From the IMG/VR virus record IMGVR_UViG_3300011420_000026, positions 1-29,869 of that record: a DNA stretch of 29,869 nt; one strand, written 5' to 3'. Numbering within the stretch: position 1 is the first letter of the stretch; each line of letters begins with the position of its first letter. The notes beneath the pieces were generated by a model that saw only the letters and a list, made by a program, of their open reading frames with translations, had not been told where the DNA came from and made no database searches. Shown in pieces: positions 310 through 27,716 of the stretch. The translations under genes were made by a program, and so were the position numbers. Source of the DNA: a virus.

Positions 310-915
310 TTAACTCTCCTTTGATGGAAGAACTGTGAATTGTTGTAATGCGGCGTTAGTTCTGATACTAGTAAATGCGTCTCCCCATCGTATCTCTGTG
401 ATCTTGGAGAGAAATGGTTTTTGATCTACGACACGAGCAATACCAATCCCATGTCCATATCTATTGGCTGTCATTGCTCCACGAATAATTTTTGTTAAAA
501 GCTCAAATGCTGGAGCCGATCCGTTCGAAAGGGATACTCCGGGAAACATCGCTGTGAACAAGTATGCCCCACAACAGGCGGGATAGGGTTGAATAGTAAT
601 TTGAGCACAATCATAACGATAATGCCCATTCCTTGCTATCACTCCATACTTGTTCCGTACCTCTCGTTGATTCGCCTCACTTACAGGAGTAGCATTAATT
701 ACATTAAGTCTTACTAGATGTATGTAGGGGTCTTTAGAATACTCAGAGGGCGAAATGAAAAGAGGAGAGTCTCTCGTTTCAAGCCTATACTTAAGTATCC
801 CATCCGCAGGGGAATAATACGCATACGCGGTATTTTTATAATTAGCAGGGGATGGAATTGCTCCTGGAGTTGACAATACCCTTGCTGCCTCGTCTATTAC
901 ATACTTAATTTCCAT
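310..915 (-). CDS. hypothetical protein in the amidoligase cassette (201 aa)
   Basis: A 201-aa protein starting at an ATG 8 nt after the GAGGAA Shine-Dalgarno sequence that forms one arm of the inverted repeat at 924-939. I do not recognise the family. It has no signal peptide or membrane segment. It is rich in Tyr and Arg, has a Cys pair (PACCGAY, about residue 114) and a C-terminal stretch with NRYGHGIGIARVVDQKPF (about 151-168). It lies between the GATase I gene and the amidoligase, 5 nt before the latter, so it is probably part of the same biochemical cassette, perhaps as a substrate-modifying enzyme or partner. That role is inferred from position only. Ends in TAA. Confidence 0.85.
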   Translation of the reverse strand: MEIKYVIDEAARVLSTPGAIPSPANYKNTAYAYYSPADGILKYRLETRDSPLFISPSEYSKDPYIHLVRLNVINATPVSEANQREVRNKYGVIARNGHYRYDCAQITIQPYPACCGAYLFTAMFPGVSLSNGSAPAFELLTKIIRGAMTANRYGHGIGIARVVDQKPFLSKITEIRWGDAFTSIRTNAALQQFTVLPSKES

Positions 916-923
916 GATGTTAT

Positions 924-939
924 TTCCTCACATGTGGAA
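924..939. promoter_or_regulatory. operator-like inverted repeat, site 1
   Basis: TTCCTCA-CA-TGTGGAA, one mismatch from the perfect dyad TTCCACA-NN-TGTGGAA. On the minus strand the start-proximal arm reads TGAGGAA and is the Shine-Dalgarno sequence of the gene starting at 915. The segment 912-941, including the start codon, is nearly identical to 6759-6788. Confidence 0.75.
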
Positions 940-947
940 TTATTTCA

Positions 948-1616
948 CTACGAAAGGAGATACTTCTGAACCAACGCGATAGAGTATTGCACGAAGGGGG
1001 CACTTTCCACCATAAATTCCGGGTGTCCTTGAATACCAAGACTATTCGTTTCTCGGAAGTATACAATTTCAGGTTCAGGAACCTCTATCTTAGATTTAAC
1101 GTTAAGCTCATTGAACATATATATCGAGGATCTATTCTCAGATGCTGTGGCGATAAGTTCAAACTTATCCTTTGGAAGAACATATGGCCACATCATTTGA
1201 TGATGAACACTGGAGGATACATACTCCTTTCCTTCGTTCGTGGAGATAAAATGATTTCCTCCTGTATGATTACTCACATGCTGAACAAGCTTTGCTCCAG
1301 ATAGGGCACATAATAGTTGCGCCCCACGACAAATACCGTAGTGCTTCGCTCCAACTTCTTGACCATGAAGGAACGCGAGACGTTCAACTACATCTCGGGG
1401 GGAAGGTAAATCGCTAGAATGGGAATGGAAAGGCTTTTCCCCATATAGCGACGGGGAAATATCCTCTCCTCCTCCATAAAGGATAACATCTCCCTTTTTA
1501 ATTTTGTGAAGGTCTTTCTCCTGATATATCGTTAATGTTTCTTTAAACATATCCCGATATATTGCGGGAGCACCAAAACAACCGCCAAGCGCGATTAATC
1601 GAACCCTTGTTGCCAT
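948..1616 (-). CDS. class I glutamine amidotransferase-like hydrolase (peptidase C26 type)
   Basis: A 222-aa protein with the class I GATase fold signature. The nucleophile elbow is YGICRGAQLL with Cys96, and the C-terminal catalytic pair is GIQGHPE (His198, Glu200). A glycine-rich strand, ILYGGGEDISPSLYG, lies near 45-59, and VHHQMM near 137 resembles the substrate-loop histidines of gamma-glutamyl hydrolases (PuuD/peptidase C26). These enzymes cleave gamma-glutamyl bonds or release ammonia from glutamine. Here it could recycle or trim products of the neighbouring amidoligase. It starts at ATG 1616 after AAAAGGAG and overlaps the upstream gene by 22 nt, so translation is probably coupled. 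It ends in TAG directly followed by TGA, a tandem stop. Confidence 0.9.
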   Translation of the reverse strand: MATRVRLIALGGCFGAPAIYRDMFKETLTIYQEKDLHKIKKGDVILYGGGEDISPSLYGEKPFHSHSSDLPSPRDVVERLAFLHGQEVGAKHYGICRGAQLLCALSGAKLVQHVSNHTGGNHFISTNEGKEYVSSSVHHQMMWPYVLPKDKFELIATASENRSSIYMFNELNVKSKIEVPEPEIVYFRETNSLGIQGHPEFMVESAPFVQYSIALVQKYLLS

Positions 1617-2053
1617 ATTACAGTAGACTCCTTTTCAGTTGGAAATTCACTATAAATAAATACTATATCTTCTTGCCGGGTAGTGGGGGCTTGTAAGGGC
1701 TCTGGCGTAGAGGTTCCTCCCACAGAGAAATCGGGGTTTTCGAGCATTGCGATAGCTTCTTGTTTTTCTTTCATTAGGATTTTTCCCTCTGCGGATTTAG
1801 CTTTTGTGTATGTCCGGCATATAAACACATTAGGTGCCCCTATAAGGCCACGATCACAAGTATTATCCTTACGATCAAACCAAACACATCGCGGACACAA
1901 TTTCTTTTGTGACATCTCATTACTCTCCGTGTGAGATACTATTGGGGGGAAATTTGTGATTGGCCTTGGAGAAGGAGTCTTTATTGCTTTAAGTAAAATA
2001 ACACTAATTAACCAGACGATACCGCACGCAATCAGGACAGTAAAACCCTCCAT
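1595..2053 (-). CDS. membrane-anchored protein with a four-Cys motif (152 aa)
   Basis: The start at ATG 2053 is chosen over an upstream ATG (2113) because GAGGAA lies 7 nt before it, inside the inverted repeat at 2061-2076. Residues 4-22 form one hydrophobic segment, probably a membrane anchor. The soluble part has Cys53-x2-Cys56, Cys66 and Cys79 (CPRC...C...C), which may bind zinc or an iron-sulfur cluster. Met47 follows a GGAGAG sequence and could give a second, soluble product starting MSQKKLCPRC. The gene overlaps the 3' end of the GATase II gene by 50 nt and the start of the GATase I gene by 22 nt, so it belongs to the same unit. Family not recognised. Confidence 0.75.
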   Translation of the reverse strand: MEGFTVLIACGIVWLISVILLKAIKTPSPRPITNFPPIVSHTESNEMSQKKLCPRCVWFDRKDNTCDRGLIGAPNVFICRTYTKAKSAEGKILMKEKQEAIAMLENPDFSVGGTSTPEPLQAPTTRQEDIVFIYSEFPTEKESTVIWQQGFD

Positions 2054-3614
2054 GGTTTTTTTCCTCAAGTGTGGAATTGGCATGAGCATCCACCGGCAGA
2101 ACATTAGGAGCATCTACCAGTTGTATTTGGCCTGAGCATCTAGCGCAACCAAGATCTGCGATCTCTTCAAATCGGTGTAGTTTATACCTTACATCATTAT
2201 GGACTACAAGAGAGAGTGTCTCATCCTCTTCAATCTCAAGAAATGGACTCTTCTTCATCTCTTCTTCAAGATTAATAATCTCCTTATTAATTAGCAAGTT
2301 CTGAACATGAGAAGAGAGACGTTCACACTCCTTAATATATAACCTCAAAGTATACTCAGACTTTTCAGAGAGATAGATTATAGAGGTTATTTTTCCAGCG
2401 AGAATAACCTCATCTTTAAACGGAAGAAAATCCCCCTTGTGGTGACACGCGACACAGACTTGTTCTAGCGCAACGTGTGTGCCAGTGATGTAAACCTTAT
2501 CCTCATTTAGAGGCTCCACCTTCTCAGGGTAGAAGGCAATCATTCCTCCTACGCGAAAACGAACGCCAAACTTGGTAATCGCGACAACCTTAGCCCGTTC
2601 TCGCTCCTTCATCGAGGCTTTATCTTCTGCCTGATGTGCCTTTCTTTCTCCGGTATTAGTAAACAACTTTTGCAATTCTAGTTGTGTCCCTTTGGCCTCC
2701 CCATCTTTGCGACCGTAGTGATCCGGCAAAGAAATTACTCCTTGGCTGGAGAGTTGAGGCCGATCCTCCATGTTTGCATAGGATTCATAATTAGTATATC
2801 CCCCGTTATTAAACCCCATACCAAAGTTTCTTCTCGAATTATTCCAAACACCACCATTATAATTCGACATCGCAGGAGAGAGCGAGATTTTTTCCTTAAT
2901 AATTGTGTCCTTGTCTTGAAGAGGAAAGGTATATAAATGATCCGGGTCAAAGTATGCCGGCGCATCAAGTTTTATATTCGAGAATTTATCCCCAATAAAG
3001 TTAAGAGTTTCTTTCTCGGAAGCGATGAATCTCATTGTTGTATCTTTTCTTGAGGCCAACCATAAGGGTCTTTCAGTGTTTCGATATGCATATATGGCAT
3101 GGGTCTTTCGATTATACCATAGTAGAGCGAGCGCTCCAGAAACTTCTTTCAATGTTGACTTAACTCCCTCCGTTGCGAATAACCATGTGAGGGCTTCAGA
3201 ATCAACCTCAAAACGAGTAAAGAGGGATTGTCCCTTTTTAGTGAGCTGAAATAAATTCCGAATAGACCCGTTGTGCGCTAGTATGATATGGTCATGAATG
3301 AATGGATGCGCATTCTTAGCAGTGATATCTCCCTGCGTCGCATATCTCCCATGTCCAATAACCGCGTTAAACTTGTTCCACATATGAGTCATAAACTTTT
3401 TTCCCACATCATGGCGGAGTAACTCATATGGATTACCGACGTGTTTAACGACCTCTATCTTATCCTCCTTGGAATCAATATGTTGCACACCAAGTAACCC
3501 CGTTGAGTGTGCCCCACGCATAGAGGTAAGTAACATCATGGGAATAATTGCTTGCTTACTTTCATAATCAAACCCGGTAGTCCCATAATGAATCATTCCG
3601 AATAATCCGCACAT
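2004..3614 (-). CDS. class II glutamine amidotransferase (Ntn hydrolase) with C-terminal zinc-ribbon extension
   Basis: A 536-aa protein beginning MCGLFG, with Cys2 exposed after Met removal as the expected N-terminal nucleophile. Further class II GATase motifs are RGAHSTG (33-39), GHGRYATQG (87-95), NAHPF (101-105), LAHNGSI (112-118) and DSEAL (138-142). The enzyme releases ammonia from glutamine and normally passes it to a synthase or ligase partner, here plausibly the amidoligase at the left edge. After about residue 205 the protein departs from the GATase domain: a Gly/Asn-rich linker (250-280), CVAC at 387-390, and a terminal zinc-ribbon-like pair C490-x2-C493 and C526-x2-C529. No sugar isomerase domain is seen, so it is not GlmS. 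The start follows TAAGGAA, which is an arm of the inverted repeat at 3624-3639. Ends in TAG. Confidence 0.92.
   Translation of the reverse strand: MCGLFGMIHYGTTGFDYESKQAIIPMMLLTSMRGAHSTGLLGVQHIDSKEDKIEVVKHVGNPYELLRHDVGKKFMTHMWNKFNAVIGHGRYATQGDITAKNAHPFIHDHIILAHNGSIRNLFQLTKKGQSLFTRFEVDSEALTWLFATEGVKSTLKEVSGALALLWYNRKTHAIYAYRNTERPLWLASRKDTTMRFIASEKETLNFIGDKFSNIKLDAPAYFDPDHLYTFPLQDKDTIIKEKISLSPAMSNYNGGVWNNSRRNFGMGFNNGGYTNYESYANMEDRPQLSSQGVISLPDHYGRKDGEAKGTQLELQKLFTNTGERKAHQAEDKASMKERERAKVVAITKFGVRFRVGGMIAFYPEKVEPLNEDKVYITGTHVALEQVCVACHHKGDFLPFKDEVILAGKITSIIYLSEKSEYTLRLYIKECERLSSHVQNLLINKEIINLEEEMKKSPFLEIEEDETLSLVVHNDVRYKLHRFEEIADLGCARCSGQIQLVDAPNVLPVDAHANSTLEEKNHGGFYCPDCVRYRLVN
2061..2076. promoter_or_regulatory. 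operator-like inverted repeat, site 2
   Basis: TTCCTCA-AG-TGTGGAA. It lies inside the last codons of the GATase II gene. On the minus strand its TGAGGAA arm is the Shine-Dalgarno sequence for the gene starting at 2053. Confidence 0.75.
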
Positions 3615-3623
3615 ATTAGGTAA

Positions 3624-3639
3624 TTCCTTAGTTGTGGAA
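3624..3639. promoter_or_regulatory. operator-like inverted repeat, site 3
   Basis: TTCCTTA-GT-TGTGGAA, placed 9 nt before the ATG of the GATase II gene. The TAAGGAA arm on the minus strand is its Shine-Dalgarno sequence. Confidence 0.75.
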
Positions 3640-3652
3640 ATAAGATATTAAA

Positions 3653-3958
3653 TTAACTTAAAACACGAAAAATATTGATTAGCTCATGTGTGGCAACCTC
3701 TCCAATACCATCTTTTGGATAGGTCGGAGGACGACGCTCAATTTCCAAAGAGCTTTTATCTTTGAACTCATAGATAAGAACTACTTCCTTGTGCCCACCA
3801 TTATATTTTATTGTGGCACTTGACAACGTTGCAGTCCCCAAGATATCTTTTAGGAGTTGCTCTCCATGCCGGTAAGTTCTTCCCCCTAACTCTGTTGCTC
3901 GATAATGATACAGGCTATTGAGAAATCTCTCAGCATCTACTTGAGTTTCAGGACTCAC
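3653..3958 (-). CDS. hypothetical protein (101 aa)
   Basis: A 101-aa protein with a GTG start that overlaps the stop of the upstream gene by 4 nt (GTGA), a typical coupled junction. The sequence looks like a small alpha/beta protein: residues 1-45 are helical and charged (RFLNSLYHYRA, RHGEQLLKDIL), followed by strand-like segments (ATIKYNGGHKEVVLIYEF). No family recognised. It lies 38 nt before the GATase II start. Confidence 0.7.
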   Translation of the reverse strand: MSPETQVDAERFLNSLYHYRATELGGRTYRHGEQLLKDILGTATLSSATIKYNGGHKEVVLIYEFKDKSSLEIERRPPTYPKDGIGEVATHELINIFRVLS

Positions 3959-4155
3959 ACAAACTCTTTCCCTTTTGGCCCGACGTATATCACATGGCCA
4001 AATTGATCTTGCACAAAAGTGTGGTTATCATCTTTTGCATTACGTAAGCAACAGGCAACAGCCGCTTCGCGGGTAGCGTAAGGGGATGCGCGTAATGACC
4101 TTTCCCAATAGCTGTTTCTACCTGTTACGATAGATTCCTTCGCATAGTAGGGCAT
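3955..4155 (-). CDS. hypothetical protein (66 aa)
   Basis: A 66-aa basic protein starting at ATG 4155 after GGGGAAATAAT. It contains WERSLRASPYATREAAVACCLRN and ends in a strand-rich segment (HTFVQDQFGHVIYVGPKGKEF). This arrangement, with residues such as YATREAAV, resembles many small phage proteins of unknown role. It overlaps the next gene by 4 nt. Its leader (4160-4179) holds TTCCCCA-n6-TGGGAAA on the plus strand, a diverged relative of the repeated operator. Confidence 0.65.
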   Translation of the reverse strand: MPYYAKESIVTGRNSYWERSLRASPYATREAAVACCLRNAKDDNHTFVQDQFGHVIYVGPKGKEFV

Positions 4156-4156
4156 A

Positions 4157-4471
4157 TTATTTCCCCACTACTTTGGGAAATTTCCATCGTTTGGTTTCGC
4201 TTTCCGTGGGAGATCGTGCCCGGTGATATACACCTACTAGTCTACCGCCATGCGCATAAGAGTTATAGGTAGATACTTTTCTAAATCCAGCAGCAAGCAA
4301 CGTAGTTACTACTCTTTTATTTTGCACTAAGCAACAACAAAGAATTGAATCTGTGCGTTTGCTCACGGGAAAGGTTTTAAGAAACCTCTTTACTGCCCCC
4401 TCCCTCCCTGCTAAAGGCAAATCAAACAAATATGTCCCAGAGCAGGTATGGATTAACTCTTGAAGATTCAT
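4157..4471 (-). CDS. hypothetical protein (104 aa)
   Basis: A 104-aa protein with a clear Shine-Dalgarno sequence (AAGGAGCC) before ATG 4471. Residues 44-82 (ILCCCLVQNKRVVTTLLAAGF, then KVSTYNSYAHGGRLVGVYHR) have the order helix, AGF turn, strand and Gly-rich strand. That order is reminiscent of the C-terminal half of GNAT acetyltransferases, but the protein is too short for a full domain and I do not claim that function. The C-terminus is basic. Confidence 0.7.
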   Translation of the reverse strand: MNLQELIHTCSGTYLFDLPLAGREGAVKRFLKTFPVSKRTDSILCCCLVQNKRVVTTLLAAGFRKVSTYNSYAHGGRLVGVYHRARSPTESETKRWKFPKVVGK

Positions 4472-4503
4472 TGTGGCTCCTTGCGCGCTTGTGACCGTAG
4501 TTT

Positions 4504-4842
4504 CTATCGAACTCTTTCACGTATATTGGGAACAAAGTGACTCTCGCTCTCGTAATACTTCTCAACGAGAATCTTGCGTATCTCCCCGCGGGGTAAACCA
4601 TGAGGAATAGTGATAGTCCTTCCCCCGCCTCTCAAAAGTCTGCCTTGACTCCCGTCTCGACCAATCTTGCGGCAAAAGACATCTTTATCACAACACTTGG
4701 CTATGTAATACTCAACAGCATCCTCAGTATCACTTAACGAGGATACTTCATAGCCAATAGTGGCTCCGCCAGTAGCAAAGATAAACTCCGTCGTGGTAGG
4801 ACGCTGCTCGCGGCGACGAAGATGAATAAAGCGTGTTGGCAT
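4504..4842 (-). CDS. hypothetical protein (112 aa)
   Basis: A 112-aa, Arg-rich protein starting at ATG 4842 after GAGGAGAGGCTCA. It has two Cys near the middle (KCCDKDVFC) and a basic Gly-rich segment, GRDGSQGRLLRGGGRTITIPHG. No membrane segment and no recognised family. Ends in TAG, with 32 nt before the next start. Confidence 0.7.
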   Translation of the reverse strand: MPTRFIHLRRREQRPTTTEFIFATGGATIGYEVSSLSDTEDAVEYYIAKCCDKDVFCRKIGRDGSQGRLLRGGGRTITIPHGLPRGEIRKILVEKYYESESHFVPNIRERVR

Positions 4843-4858
4843 TGAGCCTCTCCTCTAT

Positions 4859-5128
4859 CTAGGTGGTTGGATGGATTTTGGTATGGATTTCATCATTGAT
4901 ACTCAAACTACATACAGCACAAGAGTCAGATACGGAACTGATTCTGTTGAAGGAGTGTCTGAACTGGCGGAGATACTTTTCCACACATGTGGAATTACGA
5001 ATCGCTGCCTCTGATTGACGAAGCAGCATAGATAATTCTGGCTTAGTTAGCACCGCACCACTCTCAATCCACGTCCGCATTGTAGCAATGCGAGACATAG
5101 AAAGAGGTAATCCTTTAGGAGTGTTCAT
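4859..5128 (-). CDS. hypothetical protein (89 aa)
   Basis: An 89-aa protein starting at ATG 5128 after AAAGG. The N-terminal 60 residues are predicted mostly helical (MSRIATMRTWIESGAVLTKPELSMLLRQSEAAIRNS) and could be a small helix-turn-helix-like or coiled structure. The C-terminal part has CAVC at about 70-73. It is unusual in carrying the best copy of the inverted repeat (4979-4994) inside its coding sequence. Confidence 0.65.
   Translation of the reverse strand: MNTPKGLPLSMSRIATMRTWIESGAVLTKPELSMLLRQSEAAIRNSTCVEKYLRQFRHSFNRISSVSDSCAVCSLSINDEIHTKIHPTT
4979..4994. promoter_or_regulatory. operator-like inverted repeat, site 4 (perfect, intragenic)
   Basis: TTCCACA-CA-TGTGGAA, both 7-nt arms fully complementary, within the gene at 4859-5128. 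The plus strand also reads TTTTCCACA here (4977-4985), which fits the relaxed DnaA-box pattern TTWTNCACA. Unlike sites 1-3 it is far from any start codon. Confidence 0.75.
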
Positions 5129-5140
5129 ATCTGGTGCCTT

Positions 5141-5374
5141 TTATTCATGTTCCCTCCCATCAAGCGAGCTTGTTGGCCATTCTTGAGTAAATCTCCCATA
5201 GCCTATTGGCTCGCGCCATTGAACTTCAAGAGTAAGTGGTGCCTCGGCCGCTGGTAGATCATTGGCGCGTATCTTTCTCCCCGGCATATTGGCATATAAC
5301 CGCAATAGCACCGCTGCCGTGGTATCTAGATAAGTATGGCCGTTCGCCTTGACAATAATGCGCGGATCGCTCAT
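5141..5374 (-). CDS. hypothetical protein (77 aa)
   Basis: A 77-aa protein starting at ATG 5374 after AAAGGTCAC. The first half is strand-turn-helix (IIVKANGHTYLDTTAAVLLRLYANMPGRKIRAND) and the second is Pro/Trp-containing. No family recognised. It sits 12 nt from each neighbour's boundary, consistent with one operon. Confidence 0.65.
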   Translation of the reverse strand: MSDPRIIVKANGHTYLDTTAAVLLRLYANMPGRKIRANDLPAAEAPLTLEVQWREPIGYGRFTQEWPTSSLDGREHE

Positions 5375-5385
5375 TGTGACCTTTG

Positions 5386-5691
5386 CTAATCAAGTAACGG
5401 AAGTAATCTGGGAATTCTTTCATCAGGTTCTATCTTAATCCGTTCCCGCTCAAACACAGCAAGGTTATAGCAATGAAAGGAATAGGCCACATATCCTTCT
5501 TTATCCTTCGTGAAGGGATGGAAGGTTATAGTTTTGAGGCCAAGATTATTGCCACATAGGGATTTACTCTCTCCTACACGGAAAACACTAGCGGGTATGG
5601 AGGTTGGAGCAAGACTCATTCCAATTCCATACATGAGGAATAGACAACTCAATACCCCAACAATCATCATCCAGATTGTATGGTGTTTCAT
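5386..5691 (-). CDS. small membrane protein (101 aa)
   Basis: Taken from ATG 5691 (MKHHTIW), because GGAAG lies just before it. A GTG at 5718 would add nine residues but has no ribosome-binding site. Residues 5-27 form one strongly hydrophobic helix (IWMMIVGVLSCLFLMYGIGMS). The remaining 70 residues form a soluble tail with two Cys (SLCGNN, FHCYN), perhaps disulfide-linked outside the cytoplasm. Function unknown. The first ATG is overlapped by a 14-bp perfect palindrome (5693-5706). Confidence 0.65.
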   Translation of the reverse strand: MKHHTIWMMIVGVLSCLFLMYGIGMSLAPTSIPASVFRVGESKSLCGNNLGLKTITFHPFTKDKEGYVAYSFHCYNLAVFERERIKIEPDERIPRLLPLLD

Positions 5692-5692
5692 A

Positions 5693-5706
5693 GCTTCCGC
5701 GGAAGC
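5693..5706. repeat. 14-bp perfect palindrome at a gene start
   Basis: GCTTCCGCGGAAGC, directly upstream of the ATG at 5691. In RNA it would form a hairpin that hides the GGAAG ribosome-binding site, so it could limit translation. It shares TTCC/GGAA ends with the repeated operator but has a different centre. Confidence 0.5.
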
Positions 5707-5745
5707 AGAATCAACCACAGTAGAAGAAGTATTATTAGAAAGTTT

Positions 5746-5964
5746 TCAAGCTGAATCCACCAAGTGAGACTTAACTTGAATTCGTTCTTCATCCTGTTCC
5801 ACTCCTCGCGCATACGCTTTAGCATCTTCTTTTCCTCCAGCGTTATTCGGAAATGATTTGTAATAACGATAGCCCATGTATTTTCTAGCATCAAACCCGG
5901 CCATCATCATAATGAGATATTTCCATTCGCCACTGGTCAGGTGGCGCAAGAGGAGGATTCTCAT
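5746..5964 (-). CDS. hypothetical protein (72 aa)
   Basis: Start assigned to the ATG at 5964, which overlaps the TGA of the upstream small gene (ATGA). The longer open frame reaching 6273 runs through two better supported genes, so it is rejected. A second candidate start is the Met cluster about 18 residues in. The protein contains AGFDARKYMGYRYYKSFPNNAGGKEDA, then an acidic-basic helical tail. Family unknown. Confidence 0.55.
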   Translation of the reverse strand: MRILLLRHLTSGEWKYLIMMMAGFDARKYMGYRYYKSFPNNAGGKEDAKAYARGVEQDEERIQVKSHLVDSA

Positions 5965-6080
5965 ACCCCGCAGACAACCACAGCAAATACAAACGCCGCC
6001 AGTAACATGAATACTGTTACCAATGAAATTGCTTGTGGTAAATTCGCTTTGGCTTTCATCCGAGATTTCGTGAGTCTCAT
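5961..6080 (-). CDS. small single-pass membrane protein (39 aa)
   Basis: A 39-codon gene with a very good ribosome-binding site (AAAGGAGAAATACGCATC then ATG 6080). It overlaps the upstream stop by 4 nt and the downstream start by 4 nt. The sequence is a basic N-terminus (MRLTKSRMKAKAN) followed by about 22 hydrophobic residues (AISLVTVFMLLAAFVFAVVV) and a short CGV end. This is a typical inner-membrane phage micro-protein. Function unknown. Confidence 0.6.
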   Translation of the reverse strand: MRLTKSRMKAKANLPQAISLVTVFMLLAAFVFAVVVCGV

Positions 6081-6397
6081 GATGCGTATTTCTCCTTTCT
6101 GCCGAGGATAACTGTTTTCTTGCCTTTACCTGTCCACCGATGCCGATTCCGCTTGCCATTGCAGGTATGGAATGGCCACGGCTCGCCCCGCTTCCAGTCT
6201 CTACGCGCAGCCTTGTTGTTCTCATTACGCATAAAGGCACCACTACGCCGATCCTTCTCTGTCTTGCCCACACGCCACGGCCCTTCTACACTACGGTATT
6301 TTTCTTTGCGGCGAGTGTCGATCTCCTGACGGCCTAATTCCTCATTAAGCCAGCGAGCAAGTTGTGCGGCATACATCAACATTTCAGCTTGGTTCAT
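6077..6397 (-). CDS. hypothetical basic protein (106 aa)
   Basis: A 106-aa protein starting at ATG 6397 after AAAAAGGAGAAGTAACC. Residues 1-25 are helical and acidic (MNQAEMLMYAAQLARWLNEELG); the rest is extremely basic (RRDWKRGEPWPFHTCNGKRNRHRW), which suggests nucleic-acid binding or contact with another acidic component. No known family recognised. It sits 2 nt after the preceding membrane-protein gene's stop. Confidence 0.65.
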   Translation of the reverse strand: MNQAEMLMYAAQLARWLNEELGRQEIDTRRKEKYRSVEGPWRVGKTEKDRRSGAFMRNENNKAARRDWKRGEPWPFHTCNGKRNRHRWTGKGKKTVILGRKEKYAS

Positions 6398-6399
6398 GG

Positions 6400-6762
6400 T
6401 TACTTCTCCTTTTTGACGGGTTCCTTGAGGTATTCGTCCAGAGTTTTCTCGATAAGCTGAAGGGACTTCTTTGCTAATCTTCCAGCCGGAGCACTTCTAC
6501 TTATTTCGAGCACTCCCCATCCAGCGAGGATAATTGCTGCGTCCTTTTGAGAAGGGGTTATAATACTCATAGTGAGAAAGAGACAGAAATAGATTACGAA
6601 TTTCTTTCTTACTTTTATATATTTTTTCTCGTTGCTGTAATAGGTATCCCCCTGAGCAATTAAAGCTATTAAAATCCCTATAAAGCAAACGATAGTAAGC
6701 ATGATGCTTACCGCTTGAATCGTAGCCAACCGAGTCCAGATGTAAAGCAGAAATAATTCCAT
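6400..6762 (-). CDS. membrane protein with two predicted transmembrane helices (120 aa)
   Basis: Start at ATG 6762, 8 nt after the TAAGGAA arm of the inverted repeat at 6771-6786. Hydrophobic helices are predicted at about residues 15-36 (AVSIMLTIVCFIGILIALIA) and 54-68 (FVIYFCLFLTMSIITP). The tail is charged and helical and ends EPVKKEK. Size and topology would fit a holin-like or regulatory membrane protein, but its place among early-type genes away from any lysin gives no support, so no function is assigned. Confidence 0.7.
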   Translation of the reverse strand: MELFLLYIWTRLATIQAVSIMLTIVCFIGILIALIAQGDTYYSNEKKYIKVRKKFVIYFCLFLTMSIITPSQKDAAIILAGWGVLEISRSAPAGRLAKKSLQLIEKTLDEYLKEPVKKEK

Positions 6763-6770
6763 GATGTTAA

Positions 6771-6786
6771 TTCCTTATATGTGGAA
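6771..6786. promoter_or_regulatory. operator-like inverted repeat, site 5
   Basis: TTCCTTA-TA-TGTGGAA followed by TTGCG. It gives the Shine-Dalgarno sequence (TAAGGAA) of the gene starting at 6762. The surrounding 30 nt match the leader at 912-941 with about four to six differences. Confidence 0.75.
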
Positions 6787-7330: not shown

Positions 7331-7624
7331 TTACTCCTGTTCGTTGGGATGATTCCGGCGGCTCGGACGATTGGCCACTTGTTCGCGGTTTTCCTCAGTT
7401 GTGGAATTGCGTTTCAATTCCTCTGGCCACGGGAATGGCTCTCCGAGGAGATAGACTGTGTTCCTTGTCTCTATCTCCGCCCCTTTAGAGGGGATTATAT
7501 CCAAATCCACAATCTGCGAGGTATAGACCAGCGTCCCGTCCAGATGCTTCGGATGACCGTAGCAGATACCGGCAAACCCCCCGGCCAGTAACCACCAATT
7601 CTCAAGCCTTACTCTTGGTTTCAT
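7331..7624 (-). CDS. conserved phage hypothetical protein (97 aa)
   Basis: Starts at ATG 7624 after GGGGGAACATC. The sequence (LENWWLLAGGFAGICYGHP, DGTLVYTSQIVDLD and ETRNTVYLLG) has the layout of a small phage protein I have seen in many tailed phages: an N-terminal WWLL-GICYGHP segment, a DG-T strand and a final ETRN-YxLG strand. Its function is not known to me. Residues after about 70 are a polar tail, and that tail carries an inverted-repeat copy (7391-7406) in its codons. Confidence 0.7.
   Translation of the reverse strand: MKPRVRLENWWLLAGGFAGICYGHPKHLDGTLVYTSQIVDLDIIPSKGAEIETRNTVYLLGEPFPWPEELKRNSTTEENREQVANRPSRRNHPNEQE
7391..7406. promoter_or_regulatory. operator-like inverted repeat, site 6 (intragenic)
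   Basis: TTCCTCA-GT-TGTGGAATTGCG within the 3' part of the gene at 7331-7624, 68 nt upstream of the start at 7323. It keeps the GAGGAA arm but no start codon follows closely in a useful frame. Confidence 0.7.
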
Positions 7625-7675: not shown

Positions 7676-7879
7676 TCACGAACCTACCCGCATCGTGCCT
7701 TCGAACACATGGTAATCGCATTGCTTATGCAACGTGATACCCAGCATGATGTCAGCATCTCGATCATCCGAGGTCAGGTGACCACCGAATGATTCCTGCC
7801 GCTCAACCGTGGTCATTCGCGCTTGTTGCTTCCGGCGGAACGTCAGCTTCCGATATGTAACATTTTCTTTCATTGCCAT
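7676..7879 (-). CDS. hypothetical protein (67 aa), first gene of the leftward operon
   Basis: A 67-aa protein starting at ATG 7879 after ATAGGAGAACATCAA. The first third is basic (MAMKENVTYRKLTFRRKQQARM); the second part has DDRDADIMLGITLHKQCDYHVFEG. No family recognised. It is the first convincing gene downstream of the promoter at 8216-8244, preceded by a leader of about 330 nt. Confidence 0.65.
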   Translation of the reverse strand: MAMKENVTYRKLTFRRKQQARMTTVERQESFGGHLTSDDRDADIMLGITLHKQCDYHVFEGTMRVGS

Positions 7880-8215
7880 TTGATGTTCTCCTATAAGTAA
7901 ACATCAGAAGGGAACACTTGGCGATACTCGGCTCACCCTGCGACCACGCTACAATATGTATCGCCTTACGGGCTCTCGCGCTTACCAAATGTCCCTTTTG
8001 CTGCTCACTACACAAAAAGAAAACTATATATATATTTGATGGTATCGTTTACATCATGTGATTTCTCCAGTCTGTTTATTTCCACACCCGTGGAATAACA
8101 ACATGAGCGGGAAACGTCCAATATCGTAAGAGCAATTGCCTAGTCCCGTGTATATAAATATACCGGAGACACAATTACACCGACAACCTTGTGACGCTTT
8201 CCCACTCACACCTAT
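7880..8215 (-). other. long untranslated leader of the leftward operon
   Basis: No convincing gene in this stretch. It runs from the expected transcription start (about 8209) to the first gene at 7879. It contains an inverted-repeat copy (8080-8095), a short TA run (8026-8036) and an 8-bp stem GGCGATAC/GTATCGCC (7920-7927 with 7958-7965) close to the first ribosome-binding site. The stem could be a translational or attenuation control element. Confidence 0.5.
8080..8095. promoter_or_regulatory. operator-like inverted repeat, site 7
   Basis: TTCCACA-CC-CGTGGAA, one mismatch, about 115-130 nt downstream of the expected start of the leftward transcript. This position would suit a roadblock or stoperator rather than a promoter operator. 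Confidence 0.7.
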
Positions 8216-8425: not shown

Positions 8426-8441
8426 TTCCACGCGTGAGGAA
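8426..8441. promoter_or_regulatory. operator-like inverted repeat, site 8
   Basis: TTCCACG-CG-TGAGGAATTGCGG, with a mismatch in each arm relative to the perfect dyad. It lies between the terminator (8451-8478) and the direct repeats, about 180 nt upstream of the leftward promoter. Confidence 0.6.
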
Positions 8442-8450
8442 TTGCGGACG

Positions 8451-8478
8451 AAAAAAAACCCCAGCCCGAAGGCTGGGG
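8451..8478 (-). terminator. intrinsic terminator of the 8505-9365 gene
   Basis: Read on the minus strand: CCCCAGCC, loop TTCG, GGCTGGGG, then eight T. This is a perfect 8-bp GC-rich stem with a stabilising UUCG tetraloop and a U-tract, 27 nt after the stop codon. Confidence 0.95.
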
Positions 8479-8504
8479 TCTTGAGACTTGCTTACTTCTG
8501 GATA

Positions 8505-9365
8505 CTACGCTGCCTTCGCTTCCGGGCTCTTGGCATCGTCGAGCCGTGCCATTGCGTTCTGATACTGCAAGGTTGCCGTGCCTAGTTGCTTTATCAAATC
8601 AAGGAACGGTGTGGGAATCTTGTTGCCTTTCAACTGGACACCATTAAAGCGAACCATATCCGCGACCAGTGCCAGAGTTTGGAACGTGGCGTCTTTCAGC
8701 AATGCGCTGATCTGTTCTGCCACTCCGCCCGCTACGTGCTTAGGCGGAATGGTGCCGCCCTTGTCGGCGTTAGCCGTGCCCGCTTTCCGCCCCTTGCTCG
8801 ACACGTTCGGCAATGCGACCAGTTTCTGGTGAGTCGTTCCCGGCCCGTTCAACACTTGCATCGTCCGCGACATGGCCGTATTCAGGTTAGCGCACACAAG
8901 GCGAGTCTCGCTTATGCGCTTGCTGATATGCCGCTTGTAAAGTTCCTTCACGGCATCAGGCCAGAGTTCCCGCGCCCCGTTGATCTGCTCATCGGACAGG
9001 CCCGCTTTGACCAGCATCTCACGGTAAACAAGTTTCGGGTATGCCTGAAGCACCGGATTGACAGATGGCGAATCCTTCGTGGCACCTTTGACATACGGCA
9101 CCTTAGAAGCGATGGCGCCGACGGCGCGCCAGCAGTCCATCCGGTCTCCCATCAGATTGATCTGCGACAGGATAAAGCCGCTTTCCTTCTGCGCTTCGCC
9201 CAGCAATGCCTTCTGCCAGTTGATACCAGCGGGCACCGCGTCTTTGCCAGTAGCCGCACCTTTCACCTTTGCTGCCGCTTGCACATGTTCGGCCGTAGGC
9301 GTGGTTGCCGCCACGGCTAGCGTGAGTGCCTCGCTCTTGGGTTTCGTGTTCGCTGTCGTTGTCAT
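8505..9365 (-). CDS. monocistronic gene of unknown function (286 aa)
   Basis: Start placed at ATG 9365 (MTTTANTKPK), which has AAAGGAACAGTGACC before it. An ATG at 9431 would lie within the promoter itself. The N-terminal 55 residues are low in complexity and rich in Ala/Thr. Residues about 60-190 are helical (QKALLGEAQKESGFILSQINLMGDRM, ARELWPDAVKELYKRHISKRISETRLVCANLNTAMSR). A Gly/Lys linker (PNVSSKGRKAGTANADKGGTIPPK) precedes a last helical part. No helix-turn-helix or catalytic motif seen. Own promoter, own terminator and higher GC than the nearby small genes suggest independent, probably high, expression and a separate origin. Confidence 0.85.
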   Translation of the reverse strand: MTTTANTKPKSEALTLAVAATTPTAEHVQAAAKVKGAATGKDAVPAGINWQKALLGEAQKESGFILSQINLMGDRMDCWRAVGAIASKVPYVKGATKDSPSVNPVLQAYPKLVYREMLVKAGLSDEQINGARELWPDAVKELYKRHISKRISETRLVCANLNTAMSRTMQVLNGPGTTHQKLVALPNVSSKGRKAGTANADKGGTIPPKHVAGGVAEQISALLKDATFQTLALVADMVRFNGVQLKGNKIPTPFLDLIKQLGTATLQYQNAMARLDDAKSPEAKAA

Positions 9366-9483: not shown

Positions 9484-9499
9484 TTCCTGACCTGTGGAA
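9484..9499. promoter_or_regulatory. operator-like inverted repeat, site 9
   Basis: TTCCTGA-CC-TGTGGAA, about 37 nt upstream of the -35 element of the 286-aa gene's promoter. It is the rightmost good copy in the window. Confidence 0.65.
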
Positions 9500-9826: not shown

Positions 9827-9840
9827 ATTCTTTTTATTTA

Positions 9841-9995
9841 TTTTATATATATATATAGTATATAATATATTATAGTATAATATATATAATAATATATAAT
9901 AATATAGTATAGTATAATATATTATATATATAATATAGTATAATATATATATATAATACTATATATAATATATAATATAGTATATTATATATATA
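9841..9995. repeat. extreme AT tract of degenerate TA repeats
   Basis: About 155 bp made almost only of A and T, with occasional G in the recurring unit TATAATATAGTA and a single C (9959). It lies between the leftward and rightward transcription units. Such a tract would melt easily, as in a DNA-unwinding element, and is prone to slippage, so its exact length in the assembly may be unreliable. Confidence 0.85.
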
Positions 9996-10019
9996 ATGAT
10001 ATTAGACATCTAATATCAT
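9996..10019. repeat. 24-bp inverted repeat beside the AT tract
   Basis: ATGATATTAGA-CA-TCTAATATCAT: two perfectly complementary 11-nt arms around CA, at the right edge of the AT tract. Could be a protein-binding dyad or origin component. Confidence 0.75.
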
Positions 10020-11846: not shown

Positions 11847-13305
11847 ACGTAAGCTGACTCCTGCTTGTCACCTTGAATGGTGGGAGTTATGCACAAGTTC
11901 TGCTCCATTAGTCGCTATTGCAGCGCCTCGTGGTCACGCAAAGAGCACTGCAATCACTCATGTATACGTTCTTGCCAACATGCTTTTTAGGGAGAGAGGG
12001 TTCTGCCTTCTGATCTCGGATACATATGAACAAGCAGTTATGTTCTTGAAAGACATTGCTATGGAGTTACATGAAAACGAAGACTTACACACCCTATTCG
12101 AGATTTGTCCGGAGTTTGAAAAAGATTCGGAAAACGATATCATCGTCAAGTTCAAAGATGGTGAGAAATTTCGGATTATGGCTAAAGGGAGCGAGCAAAA
12201 GGTAAGGGGATTAAAGTGGAATTCCCGTCGTCCAGACTTAATTGTTTGTGACGATCTCGAAAACGACGAGATTGTGATGAATGAGGAGCGTCGTAAGAAG
12301 TTTAAGAATTGGTTTTTAGATGCTTTAGTGCCGTGCCGAAGTGATAATGGTATCATTCGAGTTGTAGGCACTATTCTGCATTTAGATAGTCTTCTTGAGA
12401 ATCTTATGCCCCCCCTGCATGATCGGGTATTTACAATCAATACTCCATTAAAGTCAATCTCTGTAAATAAACGTAGATCCTGGAAAGCAGTTCGTTATCG
12501 CGCTCATCCTGGAATTGGAGACTTCTCAGAGATTCTTTGGGAAAGTAAATGGCCAAAACAACGATTACTTGATGAGCGGCAGAAATATTTAGATCAAGGT
12601 AATCCTGAAGGCTATGCCAAGGAGTATCTCAATTATCCGATTGATGACTCTCACTCTTACTTTCGTAAGTCTGATTTTGTATCCTCAGAAGAGGGAGATG
12701 CAGAGAAGTTTAAGCACTACTACATTGGAGTAGACTTAGCTCTTGGACAATCAGATCGTTCAGACTATTCATGTTTTGTTGTGGGAGGAGTTGATGCAGA
12801 AGGGCTACTTCACATTGTGGAAGTTATCCGAGAACGGATGGACACTAAAGAAAGTGCCGAAGTCTTCTTCGCGCTTCAGCAACGATTTGATCCTGAGATA
12901 TTCATTGTTGAAGGAGGGGCGATTGAGAAGTCTATTGGGCCCTTCCTTTATGCAGAGATGCTCAAGCCGAATAGAATTCCGCTTACTATTGTTACCAAAA
13001 CACCTTCTAAGGATAAGGAATACCGCGCCAGATCTATACAGGCGCGTATGAGAGCCCATGGATGCAGATTCAATAAAGCGGCCGATTGGTATCCAGAATT
13101 TGAGAGGGAATGTCTTGAATTCCCCAGAAGCAAACACGATGACCAAGTAGATTCCTTTGCATATATTGGTCTGATGCTCCGCGATCTTATAGACGCTCCG
13201 ACACGAGAAGAAATGAGACGTGCAGACTGGGAAGAAGAAGTAAGTATTAATCTGGGATTCCGAGTGGGCGAGCCCGATGGTAGATCAGAATACACGGCAT
13301 ATTAA
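11779..13305 (+). CDS. terL: terminase large subunit (ATPase and nuclease)
   Basis: A 508-aa DNA-packaging motor. Numbering from GTG 11779: Walker A APRGHAKST (49-57), Walker B DLIVCDDLE (153-161), and coupling motif GTI (197-199). The RNase H-like nuclease has Asp319 (YIGVDLALGQ), Glu378 (IFIVEGG) and HDDQVDSF (453-460). All expected motifs are intact. The true start could also be ATG 11782 or 11800; the first 68 nt overlap terS, so the two are probably translated together. It ends 2 nt before the portal gene. Confidence 0.96.
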   Translation: MMSLTARMIHGLSESVLSQRFFERKLTPACHLEWWELCTSSAPLVAIAAPRGHAKSTAITHVYVLANMLFRERGFCLLISDTYEQAVMFLKDIAMELHENEDLHTLFEICPEFEKDSENDIIVKFKDGEKFRIMAKGSEQKVRGLKWNSRRPDLIVCDDLENDEIVMNEERRKKFKNWFLDALVPCRSDNGIIRVVGTILHLDSLLENLMPPLHDRVFTINTPLKSISVNKRRSWKAVRYRAHPGIGDFSEILWESKWPKQRLLDERQKYLDQGNPEGYAKEYLNYPIDDSHSYFRKSDFVSSEEGDAEKFKHYYIGVDLALGQSDRSDYSCFVVGGVDAEGLLHIVEVIRERMDTKESAEVFFALQQRFDPEIFIVEGGAIEKSIGPFLYAEMLKPNRIPLTIVTKTPSKDKEYRARSIQARMRAHGCRFNKAADWYPEFERECLEFPRSKHDDQVDSFAYIGLMLRDLIDAPTREEMRRADWEEEVSINLGFRVGEPDGRSEYTAY

Positions 13306-13307
13306 TA

Positions 13308-15347
13308 ATGGCAGACTTAAATCTAAATAAAATCCTGGAATCGACAAATCTCGCCAAAGAACTAAGTGAAGAACTTCTCACTGAGATTGGGGATCGTGTT
13401 GTAAAAGATTTTGATATAGATACCCAGTCTAGAAAAGACTGGATGAATCGTATGGATGACTGGATTAAGTTGTCCACTCAAGTCATGGAGAAGAAGACTT
13501 TCCCGTGGGCGAAAGCAGCAAATATTAAATACCCACTAGTTACTACTGCGGCCATGCAGTTTAGTGCTCGTGCTTATCCGGCGCTTGTCCAAGGACTCGA
13601 TATTGTAAAAGTTCGGGCTATTGGAGATGATCCTACGGGAGAGAAGGCAGCAAGAGCTGCTCGTGTCTCCAAGCATATGAGCTACCAAATTCTCGAACAG
13701 ATGGATGACTGGGAAGAGGATATGGATAAGATCACCATGATGGTTCCAATCATCGGGTGTGCTTTCAAGAAGACTTGGTATGATTCTAATACTAAGAAGA
13801 ATCGCAGCGAGTTAGTTCATCCCAAGGACCTTGTAGTAAATTACTATGCAAAATCGTTGGAGACGGCTTCCCGAAAGACCCATGTTCTTTACAAGAGTCC
13901 CAATGAAGTCAAAGAGAAACAGCTTAAAGGGATTTATCTTGAGGATGTAGAACTATCAACCCCGCAAGTAACCAATCCTCAAATCAATTCAGAACTAGAT
14001 AAGGTTCAAGGGGCCACTCCTCCGTCCGAAGACTCCAGCGCTCCTTACGTAATGCTGGAACAACATCGCTACTGGGATCTGGATGAGGATGGATACCAAG
14101 AACCCTATATCATGACTGTAGAACAGCAAAGCTCTAAGGTGTTGAGAATTGTTGCTTGTTTTGAACAAGGGTCTATTGAGACTCAAGGGGAAAAGATCAT
14201 AAAGATCACTCCTACGGAATATTTTACGATGTTTCCCTTTATTCCGAACCCTGATGGTGGATTTTATCCTCTTGGGTTTGGAGCGTTACTTGGGCCATTA
14301 AATGAGACAGTCAATACCCTCATTAATCAACTCCTGGACTCTGGCACCCTGAATAACCTTCAGAGTGGTTTCTTGTCAAAGGGACTTCGTATAAAACCGG
14401 GGTCATTATCGTTTGATCCTGGGGAATGGAAGATAGTTGCTTCTAGCGGAGATGATCTTAAGAAAGGAATTGTTCCACTTCCGGCAAAGGAACCCTCAGA
14501 TGTTTTATTCCAACTTCTTGGAAACATCATCCAGAGTGGTAAAGAGCTTGCTAGCGTAGCCGAGATTTTTGTGGGTAAGATGCCCGGACAGAATACTCCG
14601 GCCACTACTACGATGGCAACTATTGAGCAGGGAATGAAAGTATTTACGGCGATTTATAAGCGCCTGTTTCGATCCCTTAAGAAAGAATATAAGAAGCTAT
14701 ATCGTCTAAATAGTATATACCTCGACCAAAAGGAATACTTTACTATTCTGGATACAGGCCAACCCGCTCAAACAGGACAAGATGACTATAAAGGGGATTC
14801 AACGGATATTGCCCCAAATGCCGATCCGACGGCAGTAAGTGAGATTCAGAAACTTGCCAAGGCGCAGGGGTTAATGGAACTTGCGCAATTCGGGACTATT
14901 AACATGCTGGAAGCTACCAAGCGAGTGCTTGAAGCCCAGCAACAAGAAAATATACAAGCGCTGATTAATCAGAATCCTCCACCCGATCCTAAGCAACAAG
15001 AACTCCAGATGAAGATGCAGATGGAGCAACAGAAGAATGAAGGCAAGATGCAAATGGATCAGCAAAAGCATCAGATGGAGATGTCGGCGAAACAAGCCGA
15101 ACTTCGTTTCAAAGAACTTGAGATGAAGATGGACCTTCAACTGAAGCAAGTGGAAATGCTTCTTGAGCAACAGAAGATGCATATGCAAATGCAGGGGGAG
15201 AAACAGAAACACGATCAGCAAATGGACATGCAGGAAGAGAAGCACTTTATGGGCATGGAGCAGCAAAAAGAGAAAGGCAAGTTACAGCAACAACAGATAA
15301 AGGAAAAGGAGAAAGCAAAGCCAAAGAATGGACAAGCCAACAAGTGA
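13308..15347 (+). CDS. portal protein with long Gln/Met-rich C-terminal coiled coil
   Basis: A 679-aa protein directly after TerL. It has portal-like features: an N-terminal helical region, MDDWIKLSTQVMEKKTFPWAKAANIKYPLV (about 46-75), a wing region with PKDLVVNYYAKSLE, and a stem/crown region around GNIIQSGKELASVAEIFVGKMPG. Length and context fit P22-like portals. The last 120 residues or so are almost only Q, M, K, E and H (QMKMQMEQQKNEGKMQMDQQ), predicting one long coiled coil or barrel, like the extended barrel of P22 gp1 but of unusual composition. The 3' end overlaps the next gene by 20 nt. Confidence 0.92.
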   Translation: MADLNLNKILESTNLAKELSEELLTEIGDRVVKDFDIDTQSRKDWMNRMDDWIKLSTQVMEKKTFPWAKAANIKYPLVTTAAMQFSARAYPALVQGLDIVKVRAIGDDPTGEKAARAARVSKHMSYQILEQMDDWEEDMDKITMMVPIIGCAFKKTWYDSNTKKNRSELVHPKDLVVNYYAKSLETASRKTHVLYKSPNEVKEKQLKGIYLEDVELSTPQVTNPQINSELDKVQGATPPSEDSSAPYVMLEQHRYWDLDEDGYQEPYIMTVEQQSSKVLRIVACFEQGSIETQGEKIIKITPTEYFTMFPFIPNPDGGFYPLGFGALLGPLNETVNTLINQLLDSGTLNNLQSGFLSKGLRIKPGSLSFDPGEWKIVASSGDDLKKGIVPLPAKEPSDVLFQLLGNIIQSGKELASVAEIFVGKMPGQNTPATTTMATIEQGMKVFTAIYKRLFRSLKKEYKKLYRLNSIYLDQKEYFTILDTGQPAQTGQDDYKGDSTDIAPNADPTAVSEIQKLAKAQGLMELAQFGTINMLEATKRVLEAQQQENIQALINQNPPPDPKQQELQMKMQMEQQKNEGKMQMDQQKHQMEMSAKQAELRFKELEMKMDLQLKQVEMLLEQQKMHMQMQGEKQKHDQQMDMQEEKHFMGMEQQKEKGKLQQQQIKEKEKAKPKNGQANK

Positions 15348-26777: not shown

Positions 26778-27716
26778 GTGGCGACCAGCAACTCAGTGGA
26801 TTTCACAGTAACACGAGATAATCTTGTCAAATACGCCCTGCTGAATGTTGGGGGTATTGGTGATGGAGAATCTCCGTCATCTAATCAATTGACAGATTGC
26901 TCAATGATACTCAATATGATTGCCAAGGCATGGCATTCAGATGGGATGCCTTTATGGGCCTTAAAAGAGGGGTATATCCTTCCGGTAAGCGACACGAATC
27001 AAGTCCTGCTCGGGCCTTCAGGCGGACATGCGACACTTTCCTATGTTCATGCTACTCTTACTGCGTCTAGTGCTGGCGTTACTATTGATATTGCTGATAC
27101 TACTGGAATTTCTAATACCAATTCCATTGGTGTGGAATTGGATGATGGCACTATGCACTGGACTACAGTGAATGGTGTTCCTACTGCCACGGTGATTACT
27201 CTTACCTCGGGACTTGCTTCTACTGCCTCTGTTGGGAATCATGTGTATGCCTATGCTGCAAAGATACAGAGACCTCTGAAGATTCTAGAAGCTATAAGTA
27301 TGAATATGGGTAATCCTCCAAATACTGAGGTTGAGGTTCAAGTAACTACTCATAATGACTTCTTCTTCACTTCAGATACGACCTCTGAATCATCGCAAGC
27401 GCTGAAACTCTGGTATGATCCACAACTTATTAATGGTATTGTGAGCATTTGGCCTAGATTCCAGGATGGAGGAAATATAATCAAGATTTGGTTTCATCGT
27501 CCATTTGAGGATTTTGATGCCGCTGGGGATAATCCAGATTTTCCACAGGAGTTTTACTTACCTCTTCTATGGCAACTCTCATGGGCAATATCTCCTCAGT
27601 ATGGAGTTCAACTTAAGGAAAGAACTATGTTCCTTCAAGAAGCAGCAATACTTAAGAAGGCTGCTCTTGACTTTGTAATGGAAGAAGGTTCACTTAGAAT
27701 CTCACCAAATGTCTAA
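26778..27716 (+). CDS. P22 gp4-like head-tail adaptor (tail accessory factor)
   Basis: A 312-aa protein with a GTG start. The opening, NLVKYALLNVGGIGDGESPS then LTDCSMILNMIAKAWHSDGM and PLWALKEGY, matches the N-terminal helical domain of P22 tail accessory factor gp4-like proteins. These bind beneath the portal to close the head. Residues about 85-165 form an inserted beta domain (GHATLSYVHATLTASSAGVT, VELDDGTMHWTTVNGVP). The end, FYLPLLWQLSWAISPQYGV and AILKKAALDFV, is helical again. Assignment is supported by the gp10-like gene that overlaps its 3' end by 8 nt. Confidence 0.85.
   Translation: MATSNSVDFTVTRDNLVKYALLNVGGIGDGESPSSNQLTDCSMILNMIAKAWHSDGMPLWALKEGYILPVSDTNQVLLGPSGGHATLSYVHATLTASSAGVTIDIADTTGISNTNSIGVELDDGTMHWTTVNGVPTATVITLTSGLASTASVGNHVYAYAAKIQRPLKILEAISMNMGNPPNTEVEVQVTTHNDFFFTSDTTSESSQALKLWYDPQLINGIVSIWPRFQDGGNIIKIWFHRPFEDFDAAGDNPDFPQEFYLPLLWQLSWAISPQYGVQLKERTMFLQEAAILKKAALDFVMEEGSLRISPNV

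Follow-up and report, generated by a model that had tools for sequence, protein, structure and literature searches.

What does a short inverted repeat do when it recurs among the early genes of a phage and when, at some of them, one of its arms coincides with the ribosome-binding site? The question is raised by a 29,869-base fragment of an uncultured virus (IMG/VR record IMGVR_UViG_3300011420_000026, positions 1 to 29,869; the whole stretch is referred to as the window). Its genes from 1 to about 9.5 kb run leftward and include those for a class-I and a class-II glutamine amidotransferase (GATase), and structural genes with terminase and portal run rightward from about 10.2 kb. An earlier reading of the sequence, termed here the original prediction, proposed that an arm serving as Shine-Dalgarno (SD) sequence places four of the leftward genes under joint translational control, through either a bound protein or a hairpin that the two arms form in RNA. 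That arm and SD coincide is confirmed, and the repeats are probably operators on DNA.

The leftward early module contains ten copies of AATTCCACA-NN-TG[T/A]GGAATT, the full site being a 20-bp pseudo-palindrome, AATTCCACANNTGTGGAATT. In an unbiased count of all 4-mer dyads in this module, TTCC-N8-GGAA was the top-ranked dyad of the first 10 kb; it has 10 copies where 0.43 would be expected (P about 4e-11, uncorrected for the few thousand dyads tried). Leave-one-out scores of the ten copies were 21-28 bits, the next best leftward match reaching 8.9. A further candidate at 27122 scored 21.6 bits; since the best match to the window site in 812 kb of relatives was 16.0 bits, it very probably belongs to the same family. 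Ten copies in the 9.5-kb leftward module thus compare with one probable copy in the 20-kb rightward part. The six copies listed in the original prediction (924, 2061, 3624, 4979, 6771 and 8080) are all present at those positions; those at 5625, 7391, 8426 and 9484 and the probable one at 27122 had been missed. The copies of the putative operator and the genes next to them are as follows.

310..915, minus strand: protein without family match, 201 aa, with putative operator fused to its SD
924..939, minus strand: copy TTCCACATGTGAGGAA; proximal arm GAGGAA serves gene 310-915 as SD at 8 nt from the ATG
1595..2053, minus strand: 152-aa Cys-containing protein with an N-terminal hydrophobic stretch
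2061..2076, minus strand: copy TTCCACACTTGAGGAA; serves gene 1595-2053 as SD at 7 nt and encodes the C-terminal end (NSTLEE) of the upstream gene
2004..3614, minus strand: class-II glutamine amidotransferase protein, 536 aa, N-terminal Met-Cys (phrog_4736 5e-60, PF13522)
3624..3639, minus strand: copy TTCCACAACTAAGGAA; AAGGAA serves gene 2004-3614 as SD at 9 nt
4979..4994, minus strand: copy with perfect 7-bp arms, within ORF 4859-5128, away from any start
5625..5640, unstranded: copy TTCCATACATGAGGAA (+), within ORF 5386-5718
6400..6762, minus strand: membrane-type protein, 120 aa (phrog_3878 1.5e-18)
6771..6786, minus strand: copy TTCCACATATAAGGAA; AAGGAA serves gene 6400-6762 as SD at 8 nt
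7391..7406, minus strand: copy TTCCACAACTGAGGAA; GAGGAA arm without a start, close to the end of gene 7331-7624 (3' side)
8080..8095, unstranded: copy TTCCACACCCGTGGAA, in noncoding DNA that lies upstream of gene 7676-7879
8426..8441, unstranded: copy TTCCACGCGTGAGGAA (+), 13 nt beyond the terminator
8455..8482, minus strand: intrinsic terminator, 12-pair stem, after gene 8505-9365
8505..9365, minus strand: first gene of the leftward module, 286 aa, candidate operator binder
9484..9499, minus strand: copy TTCCACAGGTCAGGAA, 118 nt upstream of gene 8505-9365
27122..27137, unstranded: probable eleventh copy TTCCATTGGTGTGGAA, inside the rightward gene 26778-27716

At four genes the arm next to the gene is the ribosome-binding site. 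Read on the minus strand, the proximal arms are TGAGGAA at 924 and 2061 and TAAGGAA at 3624 and 6771, ending 8, 7, 9 and 8 nt before the ATG codons at 915, 2053, 3614 and 6762, as had been predicted; no other purine-rich SD is visible at these four starts. Two of the starts are backed by other evidence. Class-II glutamine amidotransferases require a Cys right after the Met, so the start at 3614 (MCGLFG...) is independently supported, and a PHROG profile begins at 6762. Four sites at 6-10 nt from a start were reached in none of 200,000 random placements (17 leftward starts). Calculated pairing with the anti-SD is about -6.1 kcal/mol for the SD-type arms and mostly -3.3 kcal/mol for TGTGGAA arms, the T-to-A change thus roughly doubling it; the copy at 8080 attains -6.3 kcal/mol in its context through a different register. 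All four genes keep an intact TTCCACA partner arm, so that an ordinary SD of TGAGGAA form kept without its CCACA partner is not what is found in this genome. A binding-site-like palindrome is therefore merged with the SD at four genes, far from random expectation.

The altered arm is not confined to starts, as had been supposed. Three copies without a start have GAGGAA too, namely those at 7391 (the next gene is 67 nt away), at 8426 (plus-strand arm, no gene) and at 5625 (plus-strand arm, inside a gene), and copy 9484 carries CAGGAA. Eight of the ten copies join a TTCCA half to a TTCCT half, above expectation (P = 0.04), so the seemingly deviating arm is the common form. A tie between arm form and start adjacency (4/4 start-adjacent copies versus 2/6 others, Fisher P = 0.07) is only suggestive. 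The asymmetry of the site is mild; relative to transcription, TTCCACA lies upstream in six of the eight asymmetric copies.

Does the same arrangement occur in related phages? The early-region DNA of the window matched no phage record. Direct homologues of GATase II and of the 8505-9365 protein were sought and none was found, and GATase I led only to relatives of 41-43% identity that lack the motif. The terminase leads to many uncultured relatives and to one cultured phage, Alcaligenes phage vB_Af_QDWS535, which has the architecture of the window and amidotransferases of its own. QDWS535 carries a different dispersed palindrome, TCCTAANNTTAGGA (TCCTAA-NN-TTAGGA; P 8e-18), and its dyad CTAA-N2-TTAG has 11 occurrences in the leftward module where 0.14 would be expected. 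Annotated starts follow three of the copies at distances of 9, 6 and 8 nt, and no SD other than AGGA is present there; 41 of 200,000 random placements gave three such coincidences. A fourth is situated 6 nt ahead of an unannotated 76-codon GTG ORF (L268, the QDWS535 record, 44001 to about 43774, minus strand) that occupies an interval left empty in the annotation.

Leftward-module palindromes of yet other sequence were found in further relatives: TAGTCTAGACTA in L025/G012, GTTTAAN6TTAAAC in L054/G033, TTAACACTGTTAA in L297 (abutting a separate GGAG SD), TTACAN4TGTAA in L283, TTACAN3TGTAA in L281 and L282, and TTAACWATTGTTAA in L300. L318 has TTAAGN3CTTAA, with 5/10 copies at starts (P 7e-6); here the palindrome encloses or borders the SD and start codon, copies such as TTAAGGACATTAATG containing the SD and part of the start codon. 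When ten lineages were pooled, 19 of 82 sites fell at starts (-2 to +16 nt relative to a called start) versus 3.2 expected. TTAA-N5-TTAA dyads of G005, G013, G015 and G019 look compositional and were set aside. At this sensitivity no dispersed palindrome was detected in Zobellviridae phage PA11, Pelagibacter phage HTVC023P or the Manatee Spring phages MW202785 and MW202796. A collection-wide scan with the window motif gave single, chance-like copies per contig in the listed loci, except for the unrelated contig L109, in which three TTCCACA-NN-TGTGGAA palindromes (327, 473 and 745) lie within 420 bp of noncoding DNA.

DNA and RNA sites can be told apart by the arms themselves. A stem in RNA would set position 5 of the first arm against position 3 of the second. 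This pair is A/A or T/T in eight of the ten copies, with compensation in none, a pattern compatible with DNA half-sites but not with an RNA stem. Isolated SD-type sites fold at -2.9 to -4.1 kcal/mol, as opposed to -7.1 kcal/mol for the perfect copy, and the four start leaders fold no better than shuffled sequences (z from -1.4 to +0.2). The change that creates the SD removes the middle pair of the stem, and the copies with good hairpins (4979 and 8080) are both off starts. On the folding of leaders and isolated sites, the hairpin model was rejected for the window. The best fit to the sequences would be a symmetric DNA-binding protein whose half-site takes A or T at position 5, which would explain all copies, including intragenic ones. 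The copies occupy intergenic, start and coding positions and are spaced more evenly along the module than random (CV 0.39, P = 0.004), which suits a role at the DNA level, as for roadblocks.

We consider it probable that the repeats are dispersed, lineage-specific DNA operators of a stoperator-like kind that have become merged with translation starts, with a putative phage-encoded binder. Such a DNA-binding protein would bind the pseudo-palindromes of the leftward early module and repress or block transcription, some copies acting near likely promoters and others serving within the operon as roadblocks. The operator sequence would be specific to each phage lineage, as in a control system that evolves fast. 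In a tightly packed operon the operators would tend towards gene starts, where an arm holding GGA or AAGG could serve as SD, the same bases forming both operator and ribosome-binding site. If true, an overlap of DNA operator and SD across many genes, recurring in related phages with other operator sequences, would show how two regulatory codes can share the same bases in a compact viral operon and how selection on the SD shapes the half-site. It would also reveal a set of operator systems that differ by lineage, in abundant uncultured phages and, for one of them, in a cultured Alcaligenes phage. The identity of the binder, the specificity of superinfection and the uncharted role of repeats like the start-associated sequences (SAS) described below would then become directly testable.

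Among the nearest parallels are the stoperators of cluster A mycobacteriophages such as L5 and Bxb1, some twenty short repressor sites distributed across the genome in short intergenic spaces, with a consensus specific to the phage group and a majority orientation relative to transcription; these phages are temperate, and each L5 site is an asymmetric 13-bp sequence to which a monomeric repressor binds (PMC9283540, PMC6550527). The window likewise has ten (eleven) copies of one short site, including non-promoter positions. Unlike the L5 sites, they are 16-20-bp pseudo-palindromes and are fused to the SD at four genes, and no integrase was seen. In Bacillus phage SPbeta, the element SPBRE, repeated in many intergenic regions, was later shown to be the operator of MrpR, a phage-encoded master repressor of unexpected fold (PMC10516654). 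In contrast to the window sites, SPBRE is a 15-bp element in promoter regions of a prophage system, and SD fusion is not described for it (PMC10516654). By analogy, the window sites would work most like stoperators, with SAS-like placement.

Which protein might bind? The product of 8505-9365 belongs to an undescribed family aligned from 16 phages of the group (the window and 15 relatives), with the motif SATVRxSExxTIAKAxDAG and a basic RGRK/P stretch; no convincing match to it was found in Pfam, PHROG or PDB. In the window and in L297 the gene is followed by a terminator, the one in the window (8482-8455) being strong and the only exception in a promoter and terminator consensus scan of the window that gave no excess over shuffled sequences. 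The phage's own operator adjoins the family gene in the window, L297, L300, L283, L054, L281, L282 and L318, as expected for autoregulation. An AlphaFold model was too poor (pLDDT 38 alone; 59 and all-helical with the 15 relatives), and Foldseek returned nothing with it. Because its structure is not predictable from the available sequences and the family is absent by sequence from QDWS535, this protein is a lead only as candidate binder. It is conceivable, though doubtful, that one clade-wide system exists, in which, across these lytic-looking phages, this fast-diverging early protein and the lineage-specific palindromic operators, set in start regions with one arm as SD, co-diverge in specificity as in an immunity system, acting perhaps on both transcription and translation.

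Several observations weigh against dispersed operators with a phage-encoded binder. Among all leftward ORFs of the window, Pfam and PHROG revealed no recognisable repressor. In QDWS535 the 8505-9365 family is absent by sequence, and the first leftward gene, 46885-47598, is not detectably related, which weakens the candidate. No integrase was seen in the window fragment or in the QDWS535 annotation, so the phage looks lytic, and a classical immunity repressor is not obviously expected. Three of the ten pooled lineages (L282, L300 and L025) have no site at a called start, and the starts in contigs without annotation were called by a simple program that favours SDs. L008 and L009, the closest relatives by terminase, lack the early region, and no close relative that covers it was found. 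Finally, the palindrome TGTTNNTANNAACA is dispersed in 28 of 49 terminase-related phage contigs (including G017, G018, G022, G028, G030, G039, G040, G042, G044 and others) at up to 16 per genome, the reversed control pattern occurring 0 or 1 times. Its sites lie in late as well as early genes, mostly within coding sequence, so these systems may be of more than one kind.

The alternative that fares best is translational, namely that a protein bound to the mRNA, or the paired arms, blocks the SD and co-regulates the four genes, as originally predicted. The fusion at 7-9 nt without another SD and its recurrence in QDWS535 and L318 speak for it, and the QDWS535 palindrome could fold to -4.3 to -6.5 kcal/mol. 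Nevertheless we regard it as unlikely: the SD-type arm breaks the stem in the window, leaders fold like shuffled sequences in QDWS535 as well, and most copies, among them the perfect ones at 4979 and 8080, are not next to starts. The six sites off starts, several of them inside genes, and the even spacing also fit a role at the DNA level better than joint translational control of the four genes.

Slightly less probable is a kinship with the SAS of cluster K mycobacteriophages, which would tune translation or transcription without a repressor. SAS and extended SAS (ESAS) are repeats of unknown function that are limited to non-structural genes, are located at starts and contain the SD core; SAS are asymmetric 13-bp sequences located at starts in nearly all cases, and ESAS add inverted repeats, upstream of the SD, with 17-bp arms, 4-13-bp spacers and a consensus varying by subcluster (PMC3203893, PMC12699233). 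Location, restriction to non-structural genes and SD content agree with the window (PMC3203893). Here, however, only 4/10 copies are start-adjacent and hold the SD, most lying off starts, and a single palindrome contains the SD. The SAS consensus GGGATAGGAGCCC is absent, the window repeat being TTCCACANNTGWGGAA. Palindromic and lacking this consensus, the window sites are members of neither the stoperator nor the SAS family.

Equally improbable is a spreading cassette or recombination linker, mobile with or between genes and without regulatory role. The module around 6771 and that at 910-941 are indeed 91% identical over 32 nt including SD and start, but the remaining copies have only the 20-bp palindrome in common, the spacing is even, several intragenic copies lie in coding-compatible frames, and the palindrome differs per lineage. 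Least likely is a site for a host transcription factor or nucleoid protein, for which the similar palindromes of L109 and parS-like host sites in some relatives could be cited, since at least seven different palindromes occur among related phages, though this argument is weak.

Some minor features of these genomes deserve mention. Exact matches to parS (TGTTNCACGTGNAACA, the bacterial chromosome-partition site) are present at 47934 in QDWS535, at 1244 in G022 and at 14684 in G021; at least two of the three are in a noncoding region near the early module, and none was found in the window. About 170 bp of nearly pure A/T (9840-10010) separate the leftward from the rightward module of the window, and similar blocks are located at 31.8 and 48.5 kb in QDWS535, possibly marking an origin or a divergent promoter region. 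In Roseobacter phage CRP-901 (L272), four near-identical intergenic modules at 12028, 12658, 13277 and 14290 read TTGTAATCTGTGACANNTGTCA...TATATA...GAGAGAGGAA-start, a cassette that repeats promoter, palindrome and SD as one unit.

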